NCBI GenBank assembly: GCA_947476285.1
Contig: CANJPU010000026.1
Coordinates: 1-64,000, forward strand
Reading direction: 5' to 3'
Length of the DNA: 64,000 nt
Origin: Comamonadaceae bacterium
GTDB lineage: Bacteria; Pseudomonadota; Gammaproteobacteria; Burkholderiales; Burkholderiaceae_C
Positions 16,232 through 62,726 of the stretch are shown in pieces. Every line of letters begins with the position of its first letter. Within the stretch, counting starts at the first letter, position 1. Position numbers and translations under genes: made by a program. The notes under the pieces are model-generated. The model saw only the letters and a program-made list of their open reading frames with translations. It did no database searches and had not been told where the DNA came from.

Positions 16232-17659
16232 TTGAGTAATCGTTGGTGGCCATCGCTGCAGCCGTTCTCGGCTGGGCATGTGGATCGGAGCGCAACGCTG
16301 TCCTGGGCCGGTCGGTTTGGCCTTGGCGCTTTGCTTGGCCTGGCCTTGTGCGGCCCGGCCTTGGCGCAGGCCGATGCCTCGCTGCAGCGCCAGGTGGATG
16401 AAGCCTTTGGGTAAGTGCAGCGTCAGCCACAAGATCTCGGTGCGATGGATCGCTACGCCAGGCTGCTGGTGCAGTCTGGTAATTATGAGGGCGCGGTTGC
16501 CGCGCTTGAGCGTCTGCTGATCAATCCGCAGGCCGCGCCTTCAGTCCGCCTTGACATCGCAGTGCTCTACTACCGCATGGGCTCGTATGCCATGGCCGAG
16601 GCCATGCTGCACGATGCGCTGCAAGACCGGCGCCTGACACCCGAGCAGCAGGCTCTGGCCCGCAAGCTGCTCGGCGACGCCCAGCGGCGTAACCAGGTCT
16701 CGCAGATCGATGGCAGCGTGCTGCTGGCGCTGCGCCATCAAAGCAACCCCACCTATCGCACAGCGGATGCCAATGTGTATTCGGCAGGCGCGCTAGGCCC
16801 CTTGGCGCCCGCAGATAGGCCGCAATCAGACGCCGACGCCACCCTGGGTCTGCGCCTGGCCCATGTTTACGACCTTCAGATGCAAAATTATGCGTCCGTC
16901 GTCAGCACCCTGGGCGCCTACTGGGTTGATTACCGCTCTTCATCGGGCAGCCGCCTGCAGGCCAACCCTGCCAATGCCGCCGATCTGCTGTCACTTGAGG
17001 TCACCAGCGGCCTGCGCTTTAGGCCCTTGCCGGTGCAGGCCGCCGGCCTGAGCGTGCGGCCGCACGTGTTGGCGTCCCAGGTGGCGGCTCGTCAGCACCA
17101 CTACTTACGCAGCCACGGGTTGGGTCTTGATGTGTCATACCAGCACAGCGAGTACACGCTGGCCGAGTTGACGATTGATTCGCAGCAGCGCAGCTTCGCC
17201 AACCGGATTGACCTGACCGATTCACAGTTCATAGGCGGGCGCCTGAGCAGCCTGCGCGCACGCCTGACGCACGAGCTCGCGCCCGGGCGCGTGCTGGTCG
17301 GTGAACTGGCAGCGCGGCGCAATGACACGGCGCGCGATTACTACGATTTCGACACACTGGAGGCTCGGGTTAGTTATTCGTTTTCGTATGCCAACCCATT
17401 TGTGGCCGCAGGCCGCGCCTTGACCACATCGCTCACGCTGAGCGCGGTCGATCGTCGCTACGGCGCCGCTGACCCCGCCATCAAGGCCGGGACCACAAGG
17501 CACGATAAAGAATGGCGCCTGGGCCTGCATCAGTCGGTGCCTTTGTCCGATGCATGGGCGGCGCTGCTGGTGGTGGAGCGCGCACGCAGTCGATCCAGCC
17601 TGCCCAATTTCAACTACAACAACACGGCGATCTCTGGTGCGTTGCTGTACCGGTTCTAG
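16232..17659 (+). pseudogene. TPR/outer-membrane beta-barrel protein gene interrupted by an in-frame TAA
   Basis: One reading frame runs through, broken only by TAA at 16412-16414 after codon 60. Before the stop, a TTG start at 16232 (GAGGGG six bases upstream) encodes a signal peptide ending A-L-A-Q-A and the start of a helical repeat (L-Q-R-Q-V-D-E-A-F-G). After it, Q-R-Q-P-Q-D-L-G-A-M-D-R-Y-A-R-L-L-V continues the same TPR helix. About 90 further TPR residues and a 300-residue barrel follow, ending in a terminal Y-R-F. A single base change from a sense codon would explain it. Re-initiation at GTG 16415 or ATG 16445 would yield a 405-414 residue product without export signal. The family is a periplasmic-TPR plus barrel type seen beside FecR proteins. 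Readthrough, a sequencing error or a true null allele are all possible. Confidence 0.75.
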
Positions 17660-17708: not shown

Positions 17709-18650
17709 ATGAGCCCCCCAATTTCCCATGACCTGTGGTTGGCCGCAGCTCTCACCGGCGCAGCACTGCCCGCTGCAGTGGGCCAGACTGCAAAGCCACC
17801 ACAAAACCAGCAGGTTGCGGTGGTGACACAGGTTGCGGCCACCATGCCGTCGCAGCCGGCCTACGCTTCAATCTTTGTGAACGAGGCCCAGGGGCGGCAG
17901 CTGGCTACCCGTGACAACGAGCGTTTGCATGTGCTTTTCCCCGACCAGTCCGCGTTGACTCTGGGGCCCGACACCGCGTTGGTGATTGAAGAGTACCGGT
18001 TTGACCCGCAAACGCGCACCGGCAAGATCGCGCTGCGCCTGGACCGCGGCGTGGTGCGTGTGGTGGGCGGGTTCATCAGCAAGACGACAGATGTGGTGGT
18101 GACAACGTCGGATGCAACTTTCGCCTTGCGGGGGGGGATTGGTATTTTTCAGAGTGGTATTCCTGTGCCCAGCGCCAGCACTGGGACTTTGCTTTTCGGG
18201 CAGAAGATGACTGCGACGTCAAATGCATCGACGCAGACTGTCACGGTGACGCGGCCTGGCAGCTCGGTCAATATGAGCACTGGGTCGCCAGTTGTCAGTT
18301 CTACCACTGCTCTTCAGGTTGCTGCAATGAACGCTTTGGTGAGTTCAGCTGCGACGAGCGCACCAGCACCAGCGGCTGGGCCTGCCGCTGGCAGTGCGGG
18401 CTCAGCCCCAGCCGCACGGAATTCTGGCTGGTTGGCCGCTGGCGCTATCGGGTTGGTAACCGTCGTTGGAATCGCGGCAGTTTCAGTGAATGGAGACAAT
18501 GGAGACAGTGGAGACAGTGGAGACAGCGATTCCGATACGGAAGGTTTGGCGCCCGACCGTTTGGCCGGTGCAGCTGACGGCCCGTCTGCCGGGGGTGCAC
18601 CCACACTTGGAAAGCTGCTGGGCAGTCCAGGGCCAGGCAACCAGTCCTGA
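17709..18650 (+). CDS. Exported FecR-domain protein with C-terminal membrane helix
   Basis: A 313-residue protein. It has an N-terminal signal-like segment (to about 26), a FecR-type beta domain around 70-145 (L-F-P-D-Q-S-A-L-T-L-G-P-D-T and G-K-I-A-L-R-L-D-R-G-V-V-R), a Ser/Thr/Ala-Pro-rich linker, a membrane helix near 238-258, and a low-complexity G-D-S-G-D-S tail from a 9-bp DNA repeat. Classical FecR proteins signal to an ECF sigma factor, but none is encoded here, so the domain more likely binds something in the periplasm. It lies 49 bases after the TPR/barrel gene and before two glycosyltransferase genes on the same strand, and is probably co-transcribed with them. Confidence 0.8.
   Translation: MSPPISHDLWLAAALTGAALPAAVGQTAKPPQNQQVAVVTQVAATMPSQPAYASIFVNEAQGRQLATRDNERLHVLFPDQSALTLGPDTALVIEEYRFDPQTRTGKIALRLDRGVVRVVGGFISKTTDVVVTTSDATFALRGGIGIFQSGIPVPSASTGTLLFGQKMTATSNASTQTVTVTRPGSSVNMSTGSPVVSSTTALQVAAMNALVSSAATSAPAPAAGPAAGSAGSAPAARNSGWLAAGAIGLVTVVGIAAVSVNGDNGDSGDSGDSDSDTEGLAPDRLAGAADGPSAGGAPTLGKLLGSPGPGNQS
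18492..18527 (+). repeat. Four 9-bp tandem repeats in the FecR gene
   Basis: GGAGACAGT-like units occur at 18492, 18501, 18510 and 18519, with single-base changes in the first and last. In frame they encode the N-G-D/S-G-D tail. A 9-bp unit preserves frame when copy number changes. Confidence 0.85.
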
Positions 18651-18705: not shown

Positions 18706-19773
18706 ATGCGGGTTTTATTTGTTTCCAACTATCCCCACCTGCCCGAGATCAGGGGCGGGTTGCAGACCACGACACATGACCTGTGCCTAGCGGTGCAGGC
18801 TTTGGGCGCCCATGCAGCGGTGTTGTGCGGCATGGACGAGCACGGCCGTGCGCGTGAGGATGGCGCATCCACTGCCTTTGATGATTCGCTGGGCTATCGA
18901 ACCCTGCGCGCACATTCGCCCGATCAGGCGCTGCCCCTGGTAGCGGGGGCCTGGGATGCCACGGCCATCGTGGTGCAAAGCGGCACCGCCCTGGCACCGA
19001 TGGTGCGCAGCAGCCTGCAAACCGGGCGGGCCACAGCGGTGTATCTGCACAACGTGGAGACGCATCAACTCGGCGGCATGCTGGTGCCCGATCCGTCGCT
19101 GCTGTATCTGGCCAATTCCCGTTTTACCGCTGAGCGGTGGCGTGCCCTGTGTGGCCTGAGCTGCGCGGTGATCCCGCCGGTGGTGGCACTTGATTCTTAC
19201 CTGGCCGGCCCGGGTGGTCAGAGCAGTCCAGACAAGCACGGCGGCACAAAGGGCGACAAAGTTCTGTTCGTCAATCCGGTGCCTATCAAAGGTGTGGAGC
19301 TGATGTTTGCCCTGGCAGCTGCTTGCCCTGAGCTGCCGTTTCTGGTGGTCGAAAGCTGGAACCTCGAACCACACTGGCGTGCACACTGCCGACACCGCGC
19401 ACAGCAACTGGGCAATGTGCAATGGTGCGCCGCGACGGCGGACATGCGGCCGGTGTACGCGCAGTCACGCGTGTTGCTCATGCCATCGGTGTGGGAAGAG
19501 TCTTTTGGACGCACGGTGGTGGAGGCCCAGCTCAATGGCCTGCCCGTGCTGGCCAGCGCACGTGGCGCGCTGCCCGAGATTGTGGGTGCGGGTGGCCTGA
19601 CGCTGGAGCCGCACGCGCCTACCCAGGCTTGGGCCAGCGCCCTGCGCCGGCTCTACGTAGACCAAGAGGGCGCGGGCGAGCGCGGGCGCCAGCAGGCCCA
19701 TGGGCACTGCGCAGCCACGCCGCTGATTGTTGCCGATCTGCTCAGCTTGCTCAGTGCGCATGCCGCCCGATAA
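18706..19773 (+). CDS. GT4-type glycosyltransferase
   Basis: A 355-residue GT-B glycosyltransferase. The N-terminal Rossmann half starts M-R-V-L-F-V-S-N-Y-P-H with a glycine pair (R-G-G-L-Q) near 17-20. The C-terminal half has V-N-P-V-P-I-K-G-V-E-L near 190 and the donor-binding E-x7-E motif in W-E-E-S-F-G-R-T-V-V-E-A near 268. It would transfer a sugar from an activated nucleotide donor in the cytoplasm; donor and acceptor are unknown. The ATG at 18706 starts the fold, with GAGGG eleven bases upstream. It follows the FecR gene by 55 bases and overlaps the giant TPR-glycosyltransferase gene by 14 bases, so the two are likely translated together. Confidence 0.88.
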   Translation: MRVLFVSNYPHLPEIRGGLQTTTHDLCLAVQALGAHAAVLCGMDEHGRAREDGASTAFDDSLGYRTLRAHSPDQALPLVAGAWDATAIVVQSGTALAPMVRSSLQTGRATAVYLHNVETHQLGGMLVPDPSLLYLANSRFTAERWRALCGLSCAVIPPVVALDSYLAGPGGQSSPDKHGGTKGDKVLFVNPVPIKGVELMFALAAACPELPFLVVESWNLEPHWRAHCRHRAQQLGNVQWCAATADMRPVYAQSRVLLMPSVWEESFGRTVVEAQLNGLPVLASARGALPEIVGAGGLTLEPHAPTQAWASALRRLYVDQEGAGERGRQQAHGHCAATPLIVADLLSLLSAHAAR

Positions 19774-22700
19774 GCCTTCGCGTAGCAAAGTAGGCAGGCG
19801 GCCCGCAGAGCCTGAGCCGCCGGGTCGATCGGTTGAACGTGCATGGCAGGCCTTTGCCGGTGGCGATCTGGGCGCGGCCATCAGACATGCCAGGCAGGCC
19901 TATGAGCGCAGTTCAGGCCAAACACCCGCCCCCCCCAATTCACCGGAGCCCGCTGCAGCGGCGGCCTTGGGTTATTTCTTGCTCGAATCAGGTGCGCTGC
20001 AAGATGCGGCTGATGTGCTGCTGCCGGCCTGCCAACAGCACGCCATGCACGCGCCCTTGCATTGGTATGCAGGGTACCTGTACCAACGCCTGGGGCGGCA
20101 CGATCTGGCGGTGCACTCGCTGCGCCGCGCCTGTGAGCTCGATGACAGCCTCGATGAAGCAGCCTTTGCACTGGCCTGGGCATTGCACGAGCAGGGCGAT
20201 CTGGCTGAGGCATTTCATTGGGCGAGCAAGGCGCTGCAAAGCGCGCCGCGGCCGCAGCGCCTGTTGCAGGTAGCCTGGCTGCACCAGCGACTCGATCGCT
20301 TTGCCCAGGCGGCACAGGCCTACCGTGAAGCCATCGAAGGCCTCGGTCGGGATGCCCCCGAACAGCCGCGGGCGCAGCTGCAGCTGGCCCAGTGTCTTTG
20401 CCAGCTCGGCCAGCATGCGCAGGCGCGCGTTGCCTTGCGGCATGCGCTGGATTTGTCCGATGGTGCGCCGCAGCTGCGGGTAGACGCCGCATGGTGCTTT
20501 CGCAGCATGGGCGATGCGGCGCAGGCCCTGACGCTGGCGCAATCTGTCACACGAGAGCAAGCCGATGACGCGGGCGCGGGCGCGTGGTACGCCCAAGGCG
20601 TGCTGCAGCAAGAGGCGGGCGATTTGCATGGCGCCGAGCGATCCCTGGCACAGGCCCAGGCGCATGACGGCTCGCTGGTCGATGCCATGTTGCGGCGCGC
20701 GCAGATCTTGCGCGGATGGGGGCGGTTTGAAGAAGCGCTTTGTCTGATGGAGCAAGTGTGCCAGCAGGCGCCTCAGTGGCCGGCTGCGCAGCAGCCTGTG
20801 GTGCAGCTGCTGCTGGACCTGCGTCGCACCGAGGTGGCGCGGCGCAAGCTGGTCGCGCTGCTGCGCGCCAGGCCGGAGCAAAGCGATCTGTGGCGTTTGC
20901 TGGCGGTGGCGCAGGTTCAGCGCGGTCGCCCGCGCATGGCGCTGCGCTTTTTGCGGCGGGCACTGCGGCTGCACGCAGGCAACATCGAAGCCCTGCGCAT
21001 GCAGGGGTGGCTGGCACTGGAGCTGCCGGATTTGCCAACCGCGCTCGATGCCGTGCAGCGCCTGCTGGCGTGTCTGGCGCATGACGTCGCGGCCCAGGTG
21101 CAGGCGGCCTTCGTGCTGGCGCAAGCGGGCCAACTGGCGCAGGCCAGTGCTTGGGCCCAGCGCGCCGTGGCCGCCGCGCCGCACGATGCCGATGCGTGGC
21201 GAGCCTTGTCGCAGGTGCGTCTGAGTCAGCGGCGTTTTGACGAGGCCGGCAGTGCCATTGCACAGGCGCTGCGTATCGCGCCCGACCGCGTAGAGGGGTG
21301 GCGCCACCTGGGCTGGGTGCATATGGGTGAGGGCCGCTTTGCCATGGCGCAGCAGGCTTTTAGCCAAGCGCTTGAGCGCGCGCCGGACGACCCCGTTGTG
21401 TGGCTGGAGCTAGCGCAGGCGCATGGCCGCGGCGGTGACGAGCGCGCCGCGCTGGCTGCACTGGACGCAGCCCTGGCGCGGCGGCCCGGCTGGGACGCCG
21501 CCTTGCTGGCCAGGGCACAACTGCTGGCCGAGCACGCGCAGCAACTGCCACAGGCCCACGCTCAGGCAGTGGTCTTGTGCGCCAAGTTGATTCGTGGCGA
21601 GCGCTTGCGCGTGCCAGCCACGCGTGTCTTGCTGCGATTGGCCGGCCTGGGCGCTGCACACGCAAACCAGGCCCTGCGCCTGGTCCCGCTTGCGGTGCTG
21701 CGTGCTGGGTATCGTGAAGCGATCGTCGAGGCGATGCGGCTTCATGGCCCTGGCTCGTTCAAGCGCTTGACCGACGCAGCTGCGCAGTGCCTCGCCGAAG
21801 ACTCATGGGTGGCGGCGGCATCGCTGTATATGTCTTCGCTTTCGGCTGGCGTTAGCGCCACAGATTTGGTGCTGCAAGCACGCACATGGTATCGGGCGCT
21901 GAAGGTGCGCAGCGGGCTGAGCAAGTTTGGTCCGCTCGGGCACCCTGACCCGCAGGATCGGCGCGTGCGCATTGGCTACATCGCGGGGCAACTGCACGAC
22001 AGCCTGTTGCGTCGGGTCTTGGCCGCGCACTCGCCGCAGCAGGCCGTGGTGTTTGTCTACACGAATCAGGCATATCCGGGTTTGCCCGCGCATATTCTTG
22101 TAGAGCCGCTGCAGCCGCAGAACTTGGCTCAATCATGCGCGGCCAATCGATTGGACGTAGTCATCGACGCGGGTGGCCTACACCCCTTCGAGGGTCAGTT
22201 TGAACTGCTGCAGGCGTATGCGCGGCGTCTGGCACCGGTGCAGTTGGGGTGGCTCGGTTGCTGGGGCAGCTCGGGCGGCTTGTTTGATGGGCTGCTGACC
22301 GATCGCTGGGCGGTGCCGGTGCAGCAGGGGTGTCACTACGAGGAGGCCGTGCACTGCCTGGAGGGCGGTCAGTGGTGCTGGGACCCGCCGCTGCTTTCGG
22401 CGCAGCTTGCGCCATCGCCTGTGTGCGCCCAGGGCTTCATTACCTTTGGGGTCAGCGCGCGCAGCCTCAGGCTCAATGCGCAGTGTCTCGATGCATTTTG
22501 TCAGGTGGTGGCCGCGGTGCCGCGCTCGGTGATTCGATTCATCGGTGAGATTGCAAATGACTGGCCTTTGCGTGCGGAAATTTTGGCGCGCATGCAGGCC
22601 CATGGCGTGCCAGTCGATCGCGTGTTGTTCGATTCCCCTAGGCCCTATGCGCAATTTCTCGACTGGTTTGCCCAGGTCGATCTGGTGCTGGACAGCTTTC

Positions 22701-25048
22701 CGGGCAACGGGGGGCTGAGTTTGCTTGATGCGCTGTGGATGGGTGTGCCGGCGATCACCTGCGCCGGCGAGTGGGCAGGCGCGCGTCAGGGCTGTTCAGT
22801 CCTCACGGCGCTTGGCCTGGAGGCGTGGATTGCAACCGGGCCGCTGCAGTTCTGTGAGATAGCGGTTCGCGTCGCGGGCGATCGCGCCGGTCTGGCGCAA
22901 CAGCGGGAGGCCTTGCGCCCTCGGATGCTCGCCAGCGGGTTGACCGACGGCCGGCGCATTGCCGCTCAGATCGAGCAGCTATGTGCCCGGCTTGCACACG
23001 AAACGAACGCAAGCGACGCAGCCGCCGACCCCAAGGAGCAATTTCGCAAACGGGCGCAACGCGATCTGGAGGCCTGGATGGCCGTGCCCAGAGCGATGGA
23101 CATGCCACGGCTGGCTGGCCCCGAGACACCGGACTTGACAGTGGTGGTGGTTCTGTTCAACCAGGCGGGTCTGTCGCGCCGCACCTTGCAGTCGCTTGCG
23201 GATCAGCGGGGCGCGAGCTTTGAGCTGATTGTTGTGGACAATGCTTCGAGTGACCGCACCGCACAGCTGCTGCGGTGTGTACAGGGAGCACGTGTGATCT
23301 ACAACGAGGAAAACCTGGGCTTCCTGCTGGCGGTCAATCAGGCAGCGCAACAGGCGCGCGGGCAGTATCTTGTCTTGCTCAACAGCGATGCCATTTTGCA
23401 GGATGGGGCGCTGGCACGTGCCTTGGAGTGCATGCGCGCCGATCCAGATATTGGCGCGCTGGGTGGGCGGGTTGTGTTGTGCGATGGCGGCCTGCAGGAG
23501 GCTGGCAATGGGGTCTTTTGCGATGGCTCGGCCGGTGGCATAGGCCGCGGCGAGGATGCCTTCGGGCACGCGGCGCGCGTGCGTCGAAGCACTGACTACG
23601 TGTCGGGTGTGTTCCTGGCCACCCCACTGGCCTTGTGGCGCAGCTTGGGCGGCTTTGACCTCACCTTTGCCCCTGCCTACTACGAAGACACCGATTACTG
23701 CCTGCGTGTGTGGGCCGCGGGCTTCACGGTGGTTTATGAGCCGTCAGTACTGGTGGAGCATCTGGAGTGGGGTAGCGCGGCGGGCGGCGAAGCGACGCGC
23801 CAGATGCGCCACAACCGCGCATTGTTCCAGGCCAAGCATGCCCAGTGGCTGCAGCACGCGCCGCGCCCAATGGCGCTGTCGCTGGACGCAGATATGTGGC
23901 GCTCACCCCAGGACAGGCCCAGACGCCCCCGGGTGCTGATGCTGGATAACGAAGTGCCACACATGGACCGGGGTGGTGGCTTGCCTCGGGCCCGCTTGAT
24001 GTTGCAGGCTTTGTCCGACTGGCCCGTGACGCTGTATCCGCTGTGGAACGCCGACGATGAATGGCAGGCGGTCTACCGCTCCATTCCAGAAACGGTGGAA
24101 GTTGCGCTTGGCCATGGGTTTGCAGGCCTGGAGGCATTCTTGGAGCGGCGAAGAGGTGTTTACGACGTGTTGATGGTGAGCCGTCCGCCCAATTTGCGCG
24201 CGATTCAAGCTTTGAGAGAACGCAGACCGGAGTTGTTTGACGGCATGCGCCTGGTCTATGACGCTGAAGCCTTGTTTGCGCTGCGCGAGATTGGCCAGGC
24301 GGCAGTCAAGGGCAGGCCGCTAACGCGGCTGGAGCGCCGCAGCAAAGTGAGCACAGAGATCGCCTTGGCCAGCGACGCAGATGCGGTGATGGTGGTGTCG
24401 CAGCGCGATGCACGTTACTTCAAGGCAGCGGGCCATCGCGTGTTTCTTGCCGGTCACGGCATCGGAGTGCGCCAGTCCGCACCAGGCCTAACAGAGCGCG
24501 GTGGCCTGTTGTTCGTGGGCGCGCTGCATCCGGATACGCCCAATGAGGATGGTTTGCTTTGGTTTGTGCGTGAGGTGATGCCGCGCCTTTGTCAAAGCCT
24601 GGCGCAGGCGCCTGTGCTGTCCGTGGTTGGATTGTGCATGTCAGAGAAAGTTGCGTCGCTGGCCGGGCCGCAGGTCCGGCTGCTGGGCCCGCAGGACGCG
24701 TTGGAACCGCACTACGATGCGGCCAGAGTGTTTGTTGCACCAGCGCGATACGCTGCAGGGGTTCCTGCAAAAGTGATTGAAGCGGCTGCGCATGGCCTAC
24801 CCGTGGCTGCATCAACCTTGCTGGTGCGCCAACTCGGATGGCGGCAGGGCCTGGAGATTCAAGCGGGCACGGACGCAGAATGCTTTGCCCAGGCGGTGGC
24901 ACGCTTGTTGCAAGACGACGCGCTGTGGCTGCGCCAGCAATCTGCGGCCTGGTCGCAGTGCACCCAGCGCTACGCGCCGCTCATGTTTGCCCAAACTCTG
25001 CGTGATGCTTTGAGCAATCCACATTTGAGCGATCCAGTTCAAGGGTAA
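19760..25048 (+). CDS. Giant TPR-GT41-GT2-GT4 multidomain glycosyltransferase
   Basis: A 1762-residue cytoplasmic protein with four parts. Residues about 15-690 are tandem TPR helices (A/L/Y-rich 34-residue units). About 720-1085 resemble the O-GlcNAc-transferase/SPINDLY (GT41) catalytic region, with R-V-R-I-G-Y-I-A-G near 735 and L-D-S-F-P-G-N-G-G-L-S-L-L-D-A-L-W-M-G near 975. About 1125-1330 are a GT2 domain (V-V-V-L-F-N-Q, V-D-N-A-S-S-D, L-L-N-S-D-A, Y-Y-E-D-T-D-Y). About 1387-1740 are a GT4 domain with A-G-V-P-A-K-V-I-E-A-A-A-H-G-L-P-V. The H-x-G region of canonical GT41 is weakly conserved (Q-L-H-D-S-L). The start overlaps the preceding GT4 gene. It could build a short glycan directly on a protein recognised by its TPRs. 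An intrinsic terminator follows at 25111. Confidence 0.9.
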   Translation: MPPDKPSRSKVGRRPAEPEPPGRSVERAWQAFAGGDLGAAIRHARQAYERSSGQTPAPPNSPEPAAAAALGYFLLESGALQDAADVLLPACQQHAMHAPLHWYAGYLYQRLGRHDLAVHSLRRACELDDSLDEAAFALAWALHEQGDLAEAFHWASKALQSAPRPQRLLQVAWLHQRLDRFAQAAQAYREAIEGLGRDAPEQPRAQLQLAQCLCQLGQHAQARVALRHALDLSDGAPQLRVDAAWCFRSMGDAAQALTLAQSVTREQADDAGAGAWYAQGVLQQEAGDLHGAERSLAQAQAHDGSLVDAMLRRAQILRGWGRFEEALCLMEQVCQQAPQWPAAQQPVVQLLLDLRRTEVARRKLVALLRARPEQSDLWRLLAVAQVQRGRPRMALRFLRRALRLHAGNIEALRMQGWLALELPDLPTALDAVQRLLACLAHDVAAQVQAAFVLAQAGQLAQASAWAQRAVAAAPHDADAWRALSQVRLSQRRFDEAGSAIAQALRIAPDRVEGWRHLGWVHMGEGRFAMAQQAFSQALERAPDDPVVWLELAQAHGRGGDERAALAALDAALARRPGWDAALLARAQLLAEHAQQLPQAHAQAVVLCAKLIRGERLRVPATRVLLRLAGLGAAHANQALRLVPLAVLRAGYREAIVEAMRLHGPGSFKRLTDAAAQCLAEDSWVAAASLYMSSLSAGVSATDLVLQARTWYRALKVRSGLSKFGPLGHPDPQDRRVRIGYIAGQLHDSLLRRVLAAHSPQQAVVFVYTNQAYPGLPAHILVEPLQPQNLAQSCAANRLDVVIDAGGLHPFEGQFELLQAYARRLAPVQLGWLGCWGSSGGLFDGLLTDRWAVPVQQGCHYEEAVHCLEGGQWCWDPPLLSAQLAPSPVCAQGFITFGVSARSLRLNAQCLDAFCQVVAAVPRSVIRFIGEIANDWPLRAEILARMQAHGVPVDRVLFDSPRPYAQFLDWFAQVDLVLDSFPGNGGLSLLDALWMGVPAITCAGEWAGARQGCSVLTALGLEAWIATGPLQFCEIAVRVAGDRAGLAQQREALRPRMLASGLTDGRRIAAQIEQLCARLAHETNASDAAADPKEQFRKRAQRDLEAWMAVPRAMDMPRLAGPETPDLTVVVVLFNQAGLSRRTLQSLADQRGASFELIVVDNASSDRTAQLLRCVQGARVIYNEENLGFLLAVNQAAQQARGQYLVLLNSDAILQDGALARALECMRADPDIGALGGRVVLCDGGLQEAGNGVFCDGSAGGIGRGEDAFGHAARVRRSTDYVSGVFLATPLALWRSLGGFDLTFAPAYYEDTDYCLRVWAAGFTVVYEPSVLVEHLEWGSAAGGEATRQMRHNRALFQAKHAQWLQHAPRPMALSLDADMWRSPQDRPRRPRVLMLDNEVPHMDRGGGLPRARLMLQALSDWPVTLYPLWNADDEWQAVYRSIPETVEVALGHGFAGLEAFLERRRGVYDVLMVSRPPNLRAIQALRERRPELFDGMRLVYDAEALFALREIGQAAVKGRPLTRLERRSKVSTEIALASDADAVMVVSQRDARYFKAAGHRVFLAGHGIGVRQSAPGLTERGGLLFVGALHPDTPNEDGLLWFVREVMPRLCQSLAQAPVLSVVGLCMSEKVASLAGPQVRLLGPQDALEPHYDAARVFVAPARYAAGVPAKVIEAAAHGLPVAASTLLVRQLGWRQGLEIQAGTDAECFAQAVARLLQDDALWLRQQSAAWSQCTQRYAPLMFAQTLRDALSNPHLSDPVQG

Positions 25049-59700: not shown

Positions 59701-61113
59701 ATGACGACTGGAAGCTTTTCCATGGTTAAGGGGGCGCTTTGCGTCGGGCGTTTCGTGCGCGCGATGCTGGGCGCTGGACTGCTGCTGGCCACTGGCTTGG
59801 CCGGCGCCCAGTCGGCCGGCGCTCAGTCGGCCGGCGAAGTGGAATTTGCCCGTGGTGTCGGCTTTGCCCAGTCCCCTGGGCAGACGCCTCGCACCTTGGG
59901 GCGTGGCCTGCAGCTCAGCCAGGGCGACCGGCTCACCACCTCCGAAGGCGCGTCGGCCATCATCAGGCTGCAAGACGGCACCCGCATGACCGTGCGGCCC
60001 AATTCGGAGCTGGTGTTGCAGCAGTTTCAGTTCAGGGAAAACGCCCCCGACAACAGCATGCTGATGCAGCTTTTGCGCGGTGGCTTTCGCGCCATCACCG
60101 GACTGATCGCCAAGGGCTCGCCCCAGGCGGCCAAGGTGCAGACGCAGACCGCGACCATCGGCATCCGCGGCACCGACTTCGATGCCCGTTTGTGTGCGCG
60201 TGACTGTGGGGCAGAGTCCGAGCGGGTGGCCGCAGTGGCGCGGCCCAATGCCGCGCAGGCCAGCGCCAAAGTCATCTTCTCTCAAGGCACGATTTTCGCT
60301 GTGGACGGGGCTGGGCAACGCCGGCGCCTGGTCGATGGCGGCGGCGTTTATCCGGGCGAGCTGATCGAAACCGCAAGCAACTCTCGGGCCGTGCTGGTGT
60401 TTCGCGACGATAGCCGGGTGACGCTGGGTTCGGGCACGCGCTTTCGCGTGGACAACTTTATCTACGACGATCGCAATGCGGGCGAAGGCCGCTTTCTGGT
60501 GTCGGTATTGCGTGGTTCGATGCGGGCCCTAACTGGATTGATCGCGCGGGCCAATAATCGCAATGTCGGCTTTGCCACTGTCACTGCCACCATCGGGGTT
60601 CGCGGCACCGGTCTGGATATCAATTGCACCGGCGCGTGCGCAGGGGAACCTGGCGGCGCCGATTCGGGCCTGACTCTCTTCGCCTGGCTGGGTTCCATCG
60701 AAGTCATGCAAACCGGCCAGACCGCGTTGCAGCTTCTGCAAGCCGGGCAGGGCCTGTTCATCTCGGCCAGCGGGGTGCGGTTGATCAACACCCAGCCAGA
60801 CATCGACGGGCCGCGGCCCGACGGGTTGAACGTGCCACCCAAGCTGTTTTCCACAGACACCGTGCCCGAGGGCGAGGAAGGCCTGTTCGTGTTCGTGCGG
60901 GACGGTCACATCGAGATCGCCACGCTCTCCGATGTCCTTCACCTGGGCAAGGGAGAGGCTGGCTTCGCAGGCACTACGGGCGAGACACGTCGTCCTGTGA
61001 CGATCCCGAAGTTCATTGATTTCGACGCAGTGCCCCTTCCCAATTCTCGCAACCCACTCTTGGTCAGCGTGCTGGCCGAGTCGGGCATCAGGCCTAACAA
61101 CCAATGCAGGTAG
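59701..61113 (+). CDS. Exported tandem-FecR-domain protein
   Basis: A 470-residue protein with a signal peptide (A-T-G-L-A-G-A-Q near 36). It has two FecR beta domains (about 70-155 and 220-310), each with an R-G-T-D/G strand (I-G-I-R-G-T-D-F near 155; I-G-V-R-G-T-G-L near 300), and a less defined C-terminal 150 residues. No ECF sigma factor gene is present. Its stop overlaps the start of a TpsB-type transporter by ten bases, so they are co-translated. It may bind a ligand or peptidoglycan near the secretion pore. The signal-cleavage region contains a 15-bp duplicated block. Confidence 0.86.
   Translation: MTTGSFSMVKGALCVGRFVRAMLGAGLLLATGLAGAQSAGAQSAGEVEFARGVGFAQSPGQTPRTLGRGLQLSQGDRLTTSEGASAIIRLQDGTRMTVRPNSELVLQQFQFRENAPDNSMLMQLLRGGFRAITGLIAKGSPQAAKVQTQTATIGIRGTDFDARLCARDCGAESERVAAVARPNAAQASAKVIFSQGTIFAVDGAGQRRRLVDGGGVYPGELIETASNSRAVLVFRDDSRVTLGSGTRFRVDNFIYDDRNAGEGRFLVSVLRGSMRALTGLIARANNRNVGFATVTATIGVRGTGLDINCTGACAGEPGGADSGLTLFAWLGSIEVMQTGQTALQLLQAGQGLFISASGVRLINTQPDIDGPRPDGLNVPPKLFSTDTVPEGEEGLFVFVRDGHIEIATLSDVLHLGKGEAGFAGTTGETRRPVTIPKFIDFDAVPLPNSRNPLLVSVLAESGIRPNNQCR
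59806..59835 (+). repeat. 15-bp tandem duplication at the signal-peptide end of the FecR protein
   Basis: GCCCAGTCGGCCGGC (59806-59820) is followed by GCTCAGTCGGCCGGC (59821-59835), one mismatch, encoding A-Q-S-A-G twice. It duplicates the likely signal peptidase site. Confidence 0.8.
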
Positions 61114-62726
61114 CCAAGTCCCATCCGCACAGTCTGGGTCAAGCTGCGCGGGCCGTGCTTGTGCTTGTCGCTTTGGCTGCGGCCGGCTCGGCTCTGGCGC
61201 AGGTTTCCACGGTTCCAATGGCGTCCGCTGCGCCCACGCCGGTTTTCGCGATCAGGGGCTTTGCCGTAATGGGCGAGAACCCGTTGGGCGATGGCGAAAC
61301 CTCCAACGTGCTCGCGCCCTTCCTGCGCACCGACGCCACGCTGGAGACCTTGCAGAAGGCCACCGCCGCGCTGGAGGCGGCACTGCGCGACAAGGGCTTC
61401 GGCTTGCACCGCGTGGCATTGCCGCCGCAGGAAGTGGGCGACACGGTGCGGCTCAATATCGTCAAGTTCACCATTGGCAAAGTTGTCATCGAAGGCCGCA
61501 GCCTGTACGACGAGGGCAACGTGCGCCGTGCGCTGCCCGAGCTGCGCGAAGGCGCCAGCCCCAATTTCAAGAAGCTGGCAGTCCAGACCGCCATCGCCAA
61601 CGAAAACCCCAACAAGCAATTGCAGTTGGGCCTGCGCGAATCCGATGAAGCCGACAAAATTGACGCCAGCATCTCAGTCAAAGAGCGGCGTCCCTGGAAC
61701 TTCGGCATAGCCCTGTCCAACGGTGGCACGCGCTCAGCCGGACGAGACCGGCTCTCGGTCTCGGGCGGCCACACCAACCTTTTCAACCTCGACCATCAGT
61801 TCGTGGGTGCCTACACCACGTCGCTTGAGAGGCCTCAGGACGTCAAGCAACTGGGCCTGTCCTACAAGGTTCCGCTCTACGCGGCTGGCGGCGTGCTCGG
61901 CGCGAGCTACACCCGCTCTGACGTGCTGGGCAACTTCGGCAGCTTCACCAGCACCGGTGCGGGTCACACGGCGGGCGTCAACTACACCCTGTACTTGCCC
62001 CCGGATGGCGGCCGACGCAGCTATGTCACCCTGTCCCTGGAGGACAAGGTCTTTGACGCCACGCTGATCAGCGGTGTCGCGGTGGGAGTCGATCGGCGCA
62101 GCCGGCCGGTTACGCTGGGCTACACTGCCCGCACCGCATCGGACACTAGCTTGTGGAGCTACAACTTCGAGCTGGCCACCAACTCGGTGGGCGGACGCAA
62201 CAATGACCTGGCGTCCTACCAGAGCGAAGATCCGCGTATCAGCACCGTGCGCTGGAAAGCATTGCGTGGCAATCTCGGCTACACGGCCAGCGTCGGCACG
62301 ACTTGGCTGTGGTCGGCTCGGGGCCAGCTCCAGTACAGCCCTGACGTTTTGATCTCGGGTGAATCCTTCGGCCTGGGCGGCTTGGCCTCGGTGCGCGGCA
62401 CCAGTATCGACCGGCCGATCGTCGGCGACAAAGGCTTCGCCGGAACGCTGGAACTGACCTCGCCCGAACTGACCACTGGCCTGAGGCTCCTTGGTTTCAT
62501 GGACGCAGGTTGGCTGGGCAACAACAATCCCAATGGCGCCAACAAGCCCGCCAGTGACCGATTGGCGAGCGCTGGCCTGGGCCTGCGCTATGCCAATGAG
62601 CCGTACGCGCTGTCTCTCGATTACGGTCGGCTTGTCAGCGGTAGCCGCGTCCCACTGGTTGTGAACTCTGCCGCGCCGCAAAAGGGCGATGAGCGGCTGT
62701 ACATCAATCTGTCGGTGCGCTTCTGA
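61104..62726 (+). CDS. ShlB/FhaC-type (TpsB) outer-membrane transporter
   Basis: A 540-residue outer-membrane protein with signal peptide (A-L-A-Q near 33), two POTRA domains (about 45-185; F-A-I-R-G-F-A-V-M-G near 48), and a 16-strand-type barrel with the conserved S-V-R-G-T loop motif near 430 and a terminal phenylalanine (S-V-R-F). These proteins secrete a partner TpsA adhesin or hemolysin through the two-partner pathway. No TpsA gene is adjacent, so its substrate is encoded elsewhere. It overlaps the tandem-FecR gene, implying that the two work together. Confidence 0.88.
   Translation: MQVAKSHPHSLGQAARAVLVLVALAAAGSALAQVSTVPMASAAPTPVFAIRGFAVMGENPLGDGETSNVLAPFLRTDATLETLQKATAALEAALRDKGFGLHRVALPPQEVGDTVRLNIVKFTIGKVVIEGRSLYDEGNVRRALPELREGASPNFKKLAVQTAIANENPNKQLQLGLRESDEADKIDASISVKERRPWNFGIALSNGGTRSAGRDRLSVSGGHTNLFNLDHQFVGAYTTSLERPQDVKQLGLSYKVPLYAAGGVLGASYTRSDVLGNFGSFTSTGAGHTAGVNYTLYLPPDGGRRSYVTLSLEDKVFDATLISGVAVGVDRRSRPVTLGYTARTASDTSLWSYNFELATNSVGGRNNDLASYQSEDPRISTVRWKALRGNLGYTASVGTTWLWSARGQLQYSPDVLISGESFGLGGLASVRGTSIDRPIVGDKGFAGTLELTSPELTTGLRLLGFMDAGWLGNNNPNGANKPASDRLASAGLGLRYANEPYALSLDYGRLVSGSRVPLVVNSAAPQKGDERLYINLSVRF

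Follow-up and report, generated by a model that had tools for sequence, protein, structure and literature searches.

The N-glycosyltransferases (NGTs) of the HMW1C type carry an all-alpha N-terminal domain in place of TPRs. FlmG contains TPRs and is not known to be fused to GT2 and GT4 domains, and the multi-module O-polysaccharide enzymes, which belong to ABC transporter-dependent glycan assembly, are not known to have a GT41 domain or TPRs. The barrel of Slam proteins is built from 14 strands. In the HMW1 system of H. influenzae, the adhesin HMW1A is described as being glycosylated in the cytoplasm by the GT41 N-glycosyltransferase HMW1C and then exported by the two-partner translocator HMW1B (PMC2877744). 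FlmG of Caulobacter is described as a modular glycosyltransferase that modifies flagellin in the cytoplasm (PMC7591256), and the O-polysaccharide enzymes, for example those of Klebsiella, as proteins with several GT modules per chain (PMC11231755). That the cargo of T11SS-type systems can be glycosylated has been raised as an open suggestion (PMC12282271).

In this study, we analysed a window of 64,000 nucleotides (the whole stretch of DNA presented above), in which a TPR-GT41-GT2-GT4 fusion gene (19760..25048, + strand) follows the genes of a Slam-like OMP, a FecR-domain protein and a stand-alone GT4. The parts are of known kinds; what is new is the setting in which the fusion occurs, with constant SlipAM-FecR neighbours and a recurrent link between SlipAM, FecR and GT41. 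We found no report of the fusion, of its SlipAM-FecR neighbours or of FecR together with Slam or GT41 in the open-licence papers searched, and the T11SS literature examined does not use the word FecR in its main texts. Our main reading, to which we give a probability of roughly 0.5, is that the fusion is a cytosolic single-chain glycosylation enzyme dedicated to the exported FecR protein and encoded beside a Slam-like exporter. Such an enzyme would be, like FlmG, a cytosolic modular protein glycosyltransferase, with FecR in place of flagellin as its target, and it shares with the O-polysaccharide enzymes the presence of several GT modules in one chain.

The fusion gene is a single open frame of 1762 aa that runs from the ATG at 19760 to the stop codon at 25046-25048, as an earlier note on this DNA had stated. 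The Pfam search gave the domain order TPRs, GT41, GT2 and GT4, which bore out the claim of the same note that three glycosyltransferase domains are joined in one protein. The TPR superhelix (19838..21559, + strand, ~residues 27-600 with an estimated start) was matched by many TPR families, with the best stretches at ~residues 105 to 595. The note had counted about 670 residues of TPR; the repeats are present, but those recognised stop at ~600, and helices run on to ~718 (residues 2-99 of the model correspond to residues 621-718). They are followed on the same strand by a GT41-like GT-B domain (21965..23029, ~residues 736-1090), in which Glyco_transf_41 (PF13844) scored 60.1 bits against a cut-off of 25 with its best stretch at 904-1068. 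Then come a GT2 (GT-A) domain (23117..23908, ~residues 1120-1383; Glycos_transf_2, 81.9 bits, residues 1127-1239) and a GT4 (GT-B) domain (23921..24994, ~residues 1388-1745; Glyco_trans_1_4, PF13692, 80.2 bits, residues 1583-1719). The last is remotely related to TIGR03087, with 74.1 bits, well short of the cut-off of 316.65. No membrane-spanning stretch was found in the fusion protein.

At E <= 1e-20, 558 homologous proteins including the window's own were found among 7988 scored; the residue, length and motif counts rest on the 120 of them that were listed. Their source names include Ramlibacter, Polaromonas, Rhodoferax, Acidovorax, Variovorax and Methyloversatilis. The listed homologues other than the window's own are 51-66% identical to it, 117/120 are longer than 1500 aa, and the simple motifs of the three catalytic domains, each of which had been credited with its own, stand in order in 113/120. 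The fusion is real: its conservation across homologues rules out a chance frame or an artefact.

Full-length fusions were found in six of the 299 family genomes, including the own genome, and in two of the 399 order genomes (own and G498); in the scan of genome contigs, 5/80 loci among the matches listed were fusion homologues. Six other family genomes also contain the GT2-GT4 half (39-46% identity), and weaker matches to it were seen in 24 order genomes. None of the four relatives of this half scanned with Pfam had GT41. In front of it lie PIG-L and a second GT2 region in L112, a second GT2 region in L113 and Methyltransf_24 in L115 and L116, and one GT2-GT4 protein without GT41 adjoins an ABC-ATPase-like gene. 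By these comparisons, the GT2-GT4 half looks like an extension module used in several contexts and here attached to a TPR-GT41 starter. Thus, the possibility raised earlier that the domains are separate elsewhere holds in part: the whole fusion is kept in homologues, but its second half also occurs in proteins without GT41.

The structure prediction showed the GT-B fold of the GT41 part well, as in solved GT41 enzymes; the refuting case named in the earlier note, a 720-1085 region without this fold, therefore does not hold. Comparison of the model placed this domain structurally closest to protein-modifying GT41 enzymes, with a similarity of 42.3 to SPINDLY versus 30.1 to NGT, and a sequence search of the PDB matched the middle part of the fusion to TtOGT (5djs, E 5e-32), SPINDLY, XcOGT and human OGT. 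The fusion combines a TPR superhelix with a GT41 GT-B fold, as do SPINDLY and the bacterial and human OGT, but it differs from them in the added GT2 and GT4 domains, an Arg at the catalytic Lys position in the window, an altered phosphate loop and fixed export-type neighbours. It carries TPRs, so it does not have the all-alpha N-terminal domain of the HMW1C-type NGTs; it has two more GT domains than HMW1C, and it stands closer to SPINDLY/OGT.

The GT41 part is divergent, being the weakest among the 17 GT41 matches of its own genome. In the GT41 region, H746, D799, G805, G806, P809, Q813, R823, W831, G869, G870, W872, R901, D978, G985, W993, R1009 and Q1010 were kept in 120/120 rows. The position of the catalytic Lys is Arg904 in the window, with Arg in 100 and Lys in 20 of the 120 listed rows, and in the alignment the phosphate-binding loop C-T-T of TtOGT (H-T-T in human OGT) corresponds to G985-L986-S987. 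The Lys is reported to be essential in SPY, where K665 mutants are inactive (PMC9715652), and its counterparts are K842 of human OGT and K341 of TtOGT (PMC4683255). These two changes, together with the long stem of the fusion GT41 clade (0.95 changes per column), would fit a dead or scaffolding GT41-like domain that binds protein or nucleotide, with GT2 and GT4 transferring sugars onto lipid-linked or LPS glycans. We consider this quite unlikely, because R901, R1009, Q1010, G985 and W872 are invariant and position 904 is occupied only by Arg or Lys, unlike in a decaying site. Moreover, the OGT loop is described as working via backbone amides, so that side-chain changes need not abolish it (PMC4683255). 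Judged from its residues, the GT41 site is conserved but rewired and probably active, with an uncertain donor; R904 and the G-L-S loop may mean that its activity or donor differs.

H746 was also considered as a catalytic base and dropped: SPY carries a Leu where H498 would be, and the alpha-phosphate has been proposed to act as the base (PMC9715652). The K-to-M change in 5djs is the engineered mutant K341M and offers no precedent for the loss of Lys. The GT2 domain has the GT-A fold with a DxD-like motif and the catalytic E/D; N1208, D1210 and E1309 are conserved, as are D1310 (119/120 listed rows) and D1312 (120/120). In the GT4 domain, the conserved Lys and Glu are K1671 (120/120) and E1674 (119/120), which we take to be GT4 motif residues.

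The genes OMP, FecR, GT4 and fusion followed each other in the same order in 9/9 homologous loci with enough flank (tblastn; L011, L012, L013, L107-L111 and L127); L014 and L015 (Magnetospirillum molischianum) are too short upstream for the order to be judged. A survey of homologues, named earlier as a check for fixed neighbours, thus yielded the OMP, FecR and GT4 in all nine loci. The stand-alone GT4 gene (18706..19773, + strand; PF13692, 57.1 bits when scanned from 18709; 62-68% identity in 9/9 loci) overlaps the start of the fusion by 14 bases, in agreement with what had been noted before. In L011, L012, L013 and L127, the GT4 match is separated from the fusion by ~800-900 bases, and the GT4 frame of L013 is longer (613 aa). 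Upstream lies the gene of a FecR-domain exported protein with an Ala/Ser/Pro-rich tail (17709..18650, + strand; PF04773, 36.0 bits; orthologue in 9/9 loci), which we propose as the glycosylation target and/or export cargo.

The OMP gene begins with a signal-peptide-like segment (16280..16414, + strand) that runs into an in-frame TAA at 16412-16414; what remains of the TPR and beta-barrel protein, which is SlipAM/Slam-like, is encoded at 16415..17659 (+ strand; 46-51% identity by tblastn, 9/9 loci). The orthologue search also flagged the stop codon in the own-genome copy ('1 TAA'), and eight orthologous OMP frames are open at this point; the stop may reflect decay, an error in the sequence or a restart of translation at GTG 16415. 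At E <= 1e-10, the OMP was found in 3/150 family genomes (own, G035 and G047), all three with the fusion. SlipAM (PF04575) matched 7/10 members of the OMP family at E <= 0.5, the best at 1.1e-9; the members of G047 (27.2 bits) and G498 (39 bits) exceeded the cut-off of 22, and the window's copy gave no SlipAM match in Pfam. The model of the orthologue in L108 (pLDDT 79.7, pTM 0.72) has six helices for three TPRs and 14 strands. The protein resembles Slam/T11SS proteins (DUF560, PF04575) in its N-terminal TPRs, the predicted 14-strand barrel and the SlipAM matches of its family. It differs from them in its partner, FecR: the FecR proteins of the fusion loci (window, L012 and L109) gave FecR alone in Pfam, with low-complexity tails and no recognised TbpB-type C-terminal barrel. 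Since the locus FecR has no recognised cargo barrel, we call the OMP Slam-like and not a member of T11SS. Where the HMW1 system has a TpsB protein and an adhesin, this locus has a SlipAM-like OMP and an exported FecR protein.

Methyltransferase genes accompany the fusion in relatives. A Methyltransf_24 gene lies directly 3' of it in 8/9 loci and in L015 (L110 has fragments only), a small Methyltransf_11 gene is present in 7/9 loci, and 9/9 carry a further Methyltransf_11-type gene in convergent orientation to the fusion. The further frames common to at least four loci are one more Methyltransf_24 gene and three frame families, in four loci each, for which Pfam gave nothing on the scanned strand. 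None of the three accompanying methyltransferases was found in the window; the own-genome search for the two smaller ones, run without a positive control, was empty, and for the third nothing beyond a 26% match at 23 bits came up. With this and the stop codon in the OMP gene, the window's copy of the locus looks reduced.

These neighbours bear on the idea of an exopolysaccharide or surface-glycan locus, in which the fusion would build polymer repeat units and the TPR-barrel protein would export them like PgaA, PelB or BcsC. The best Foldseek match of the barrel in the PDB was indeed PelB of an exopolysaccharide exporter; Slam and PgaA were not among the listed matches, an absence that carries no weight. 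However, the flanking families that Pfam could name in at least 4/9 loci are methyltransferases, with no synthases or flippases (three shared families remain unnamed), and for this reason polymer building by the fusion is less favoured. The lack of a membrane-spanning stretch, the 14-strand barrel with its SlipAM-matching family members and the regular pairing of SlipAM with FecR, mostly without GT41, also make this explanation unlikely.

We also recorded the neighbours of SlipAM in other genomes. The 120 family genomes contained 13 SlipAM loci in 12 genomes, and FecR adjoined SlipAM in ten of them (one is the fusion system in G047); the three loci without FecR were the strongest SlipAM matches. 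Among the nine other family SlipAM-FecR loci (L144-L152), four (L144, L145, L146 and L149) had GT41 downstream. SlipAM was present in 92/399 order genomes, and from these 40 loci (L185-L224) were taken down the ranking between E 1.5e-19 and ~1e-8, with a single locus for each genome, leaving out stronger SlipAM matches, fragments and the fusion system. FecR was found in 37/40 (absent from L185, L200 and L214) and GT41 in 10/40, and the strong Slam loci L153 and L154 had neither. In the pooled weak-scoring SlipAM loci, FecR was present in 46/49 and GT41 in 14/49, mostly FecR without GT41; 'weak-scoring' means E worse than 1e-19, a line drawn after the stronger family loci had been seen without FecR. 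We found no description of this general SlipAM-FecR pair.

From the GT41 matches in 48 genomes, at most 0.83 SlipAM loci with GT41 would be expected by chance against the 14 observed, an upper bound in which each HMM piece counts as a gene and genome sizes are rounded. The corresponding Poisson P of 3.7e-13 overstates independence, as genera are repeated (three loci in g164, two in g146). Further close SlipAM/GT41 pairs, seen by eye at second SlipAM loci of G377, G414, G631 and G452, were not counted. In the control, FecR or a window-type OMP was found at 0/75 other-GT41 loci (L016-L090), with a FecR profile built from order members that could miss distant FecR and with some short flanks. TPRs were present in 5/6 SlipAM-linked GT41 proteins scanned with Pfam (absent from L186). 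The GT41 genes of L145, L146 and L149 have no Lys at the catalytic position in the alignment, and some of their products may be inactive or work differently.

The GT41 tree (407 columns, 68 rows) was built by a quick method under LG+G4 with 35 of the 75 other-GT41 loci drawn at random; these loci had been fetched with fusion patterns, which biases the sample towards the fusion. The 12 fusion domains formed one clade (SH-aLRT 100), which joins GT41s from many phyla by its long stem, and the 14 SlipAM-FecR GT41s grouped with seven other own-genome GT41s across a branch with a support of 100. The tree gives no support to a common origin of the two sets. Because the SlipAM-FecR GT41s sit in another clade than the fusion GT41, GT41 appears to have joined SlipAM-FecR on two or more occasions. 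In the own genome (G000), GT41 matches lie at eight other places, two of them at contig ends.

Most measured SlipAM-linked FecR proteins end in G-x-F-x-G-x-x-A-x-x-A-G-x-x-Y ... G-A-x-x-F, which looks similar to how cargo barrels of the TbpB type end; in these FecR proteins, Pfam found FecR alone. Tails were measured at 31/49 loci, the others being not entered or shorter than 40 residues. Neither Ser/Thr (0.217 beside GT41 at 13 loci versus 0.205 without it at 18) nor N-X-S/T per 100 (1.34 versus 1.13) was clearly enriched. The locus FecR does not have this C-terminal motif, which would suit a glycosylation of another target, such as flagellin, a pilin or the SlipAM protein, with FecR as a periplasmic chaperone or anchor; the modular flagellin glycosyltransferase FlmG of the Caulobacter cytoplasm (PMC7591256) also speaks for it. 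We hold this to be very unlikely: FecR and the OMP were the only genes for exported proteins that could be recognised in the families common to the nine loci (three of them unnamed), and the other own-genome GT41 genes could serve other targets.

In the main reading, a dedicated enzyme for FecR, the TPR superhelix would hold an unfolded or newly made polypeptide in the cytosol, most likely the FecR protein of the locus, and the GT41-like domain would attach the initial sugar. Further sugars would come from the GT2 and GT4 domains together with the stand-alone GT4, and in relatives the methyltransferases would modify or cap the glycan. Sec would then export the glycoprotein, which would cross or be displayed on the outer membrane via the SlipAM/Slam-like barrel. 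The logic would be that of HMW1A-HMW1B-HMW1C with other parts. Here we infer the acceptor, the donors, the activity, the order of addition and the export of FecR via the barrel. Counted against this reading are Arg904, the G-L-S loop, the FecR without a recognised cargo barrel, without the C-terminal motif of most other SlipAM-linked FecR proteins and with no clear enrichment of tail Ser/Thr or sequons, the PelB match of the barrel, the reuse of GT2-GT4 without GT41, the reduced local copy and the unnamed flanking families. The earlier idea of one enzyme that both starts a glycan on a polypeptide and lengthens it has gained from the GT41 structure, the fixed FecR/SlipAM-like neighbours and the other GT41 genes at SlipAM-FecR pairs; it is still inferred, and the Arg at the Lys position and the separately used GT2-GT4 half count against it.

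A more specific form can be put forward tentatively, as possible rather than expected. The locus would be a glycosylation branch of Slam-like export, in which a single chain works as an assembly line: the TPR arm docks FecR and the three catalytic domains build a methylated oligosaccharide on it from the first to the last step before export, with a rewired GT41 site (Arg for Lys), possibly an unusual donor, and GT41 recruited independently at least twice. If the main reading is true, one polypeptide would both begin and lengthen the glycan of an exported bacterial protein and could become a compact glyco-engineering tool, and the FecR-domain proteins of 46/49 weak-scoring SlipAM loci would be a candidate partner class for these OMPs. 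It would also provide a concrete testable case for the suggested glycosylation of T11SS-type cargo (PMC12282271).

At 59701-62726, the window contains a second FecR gene (75.1 bits) that overlaps the following gene of a ShlB/FhaC two-partner translocator (93.6 bits). The 4.6 kb up to the contig end contained no recognisable adhesin gene. Here, FecR stands beside another type of protein exporter, and a UbiE-like methyltransferase frame, named by eye, follows soon after the pair.
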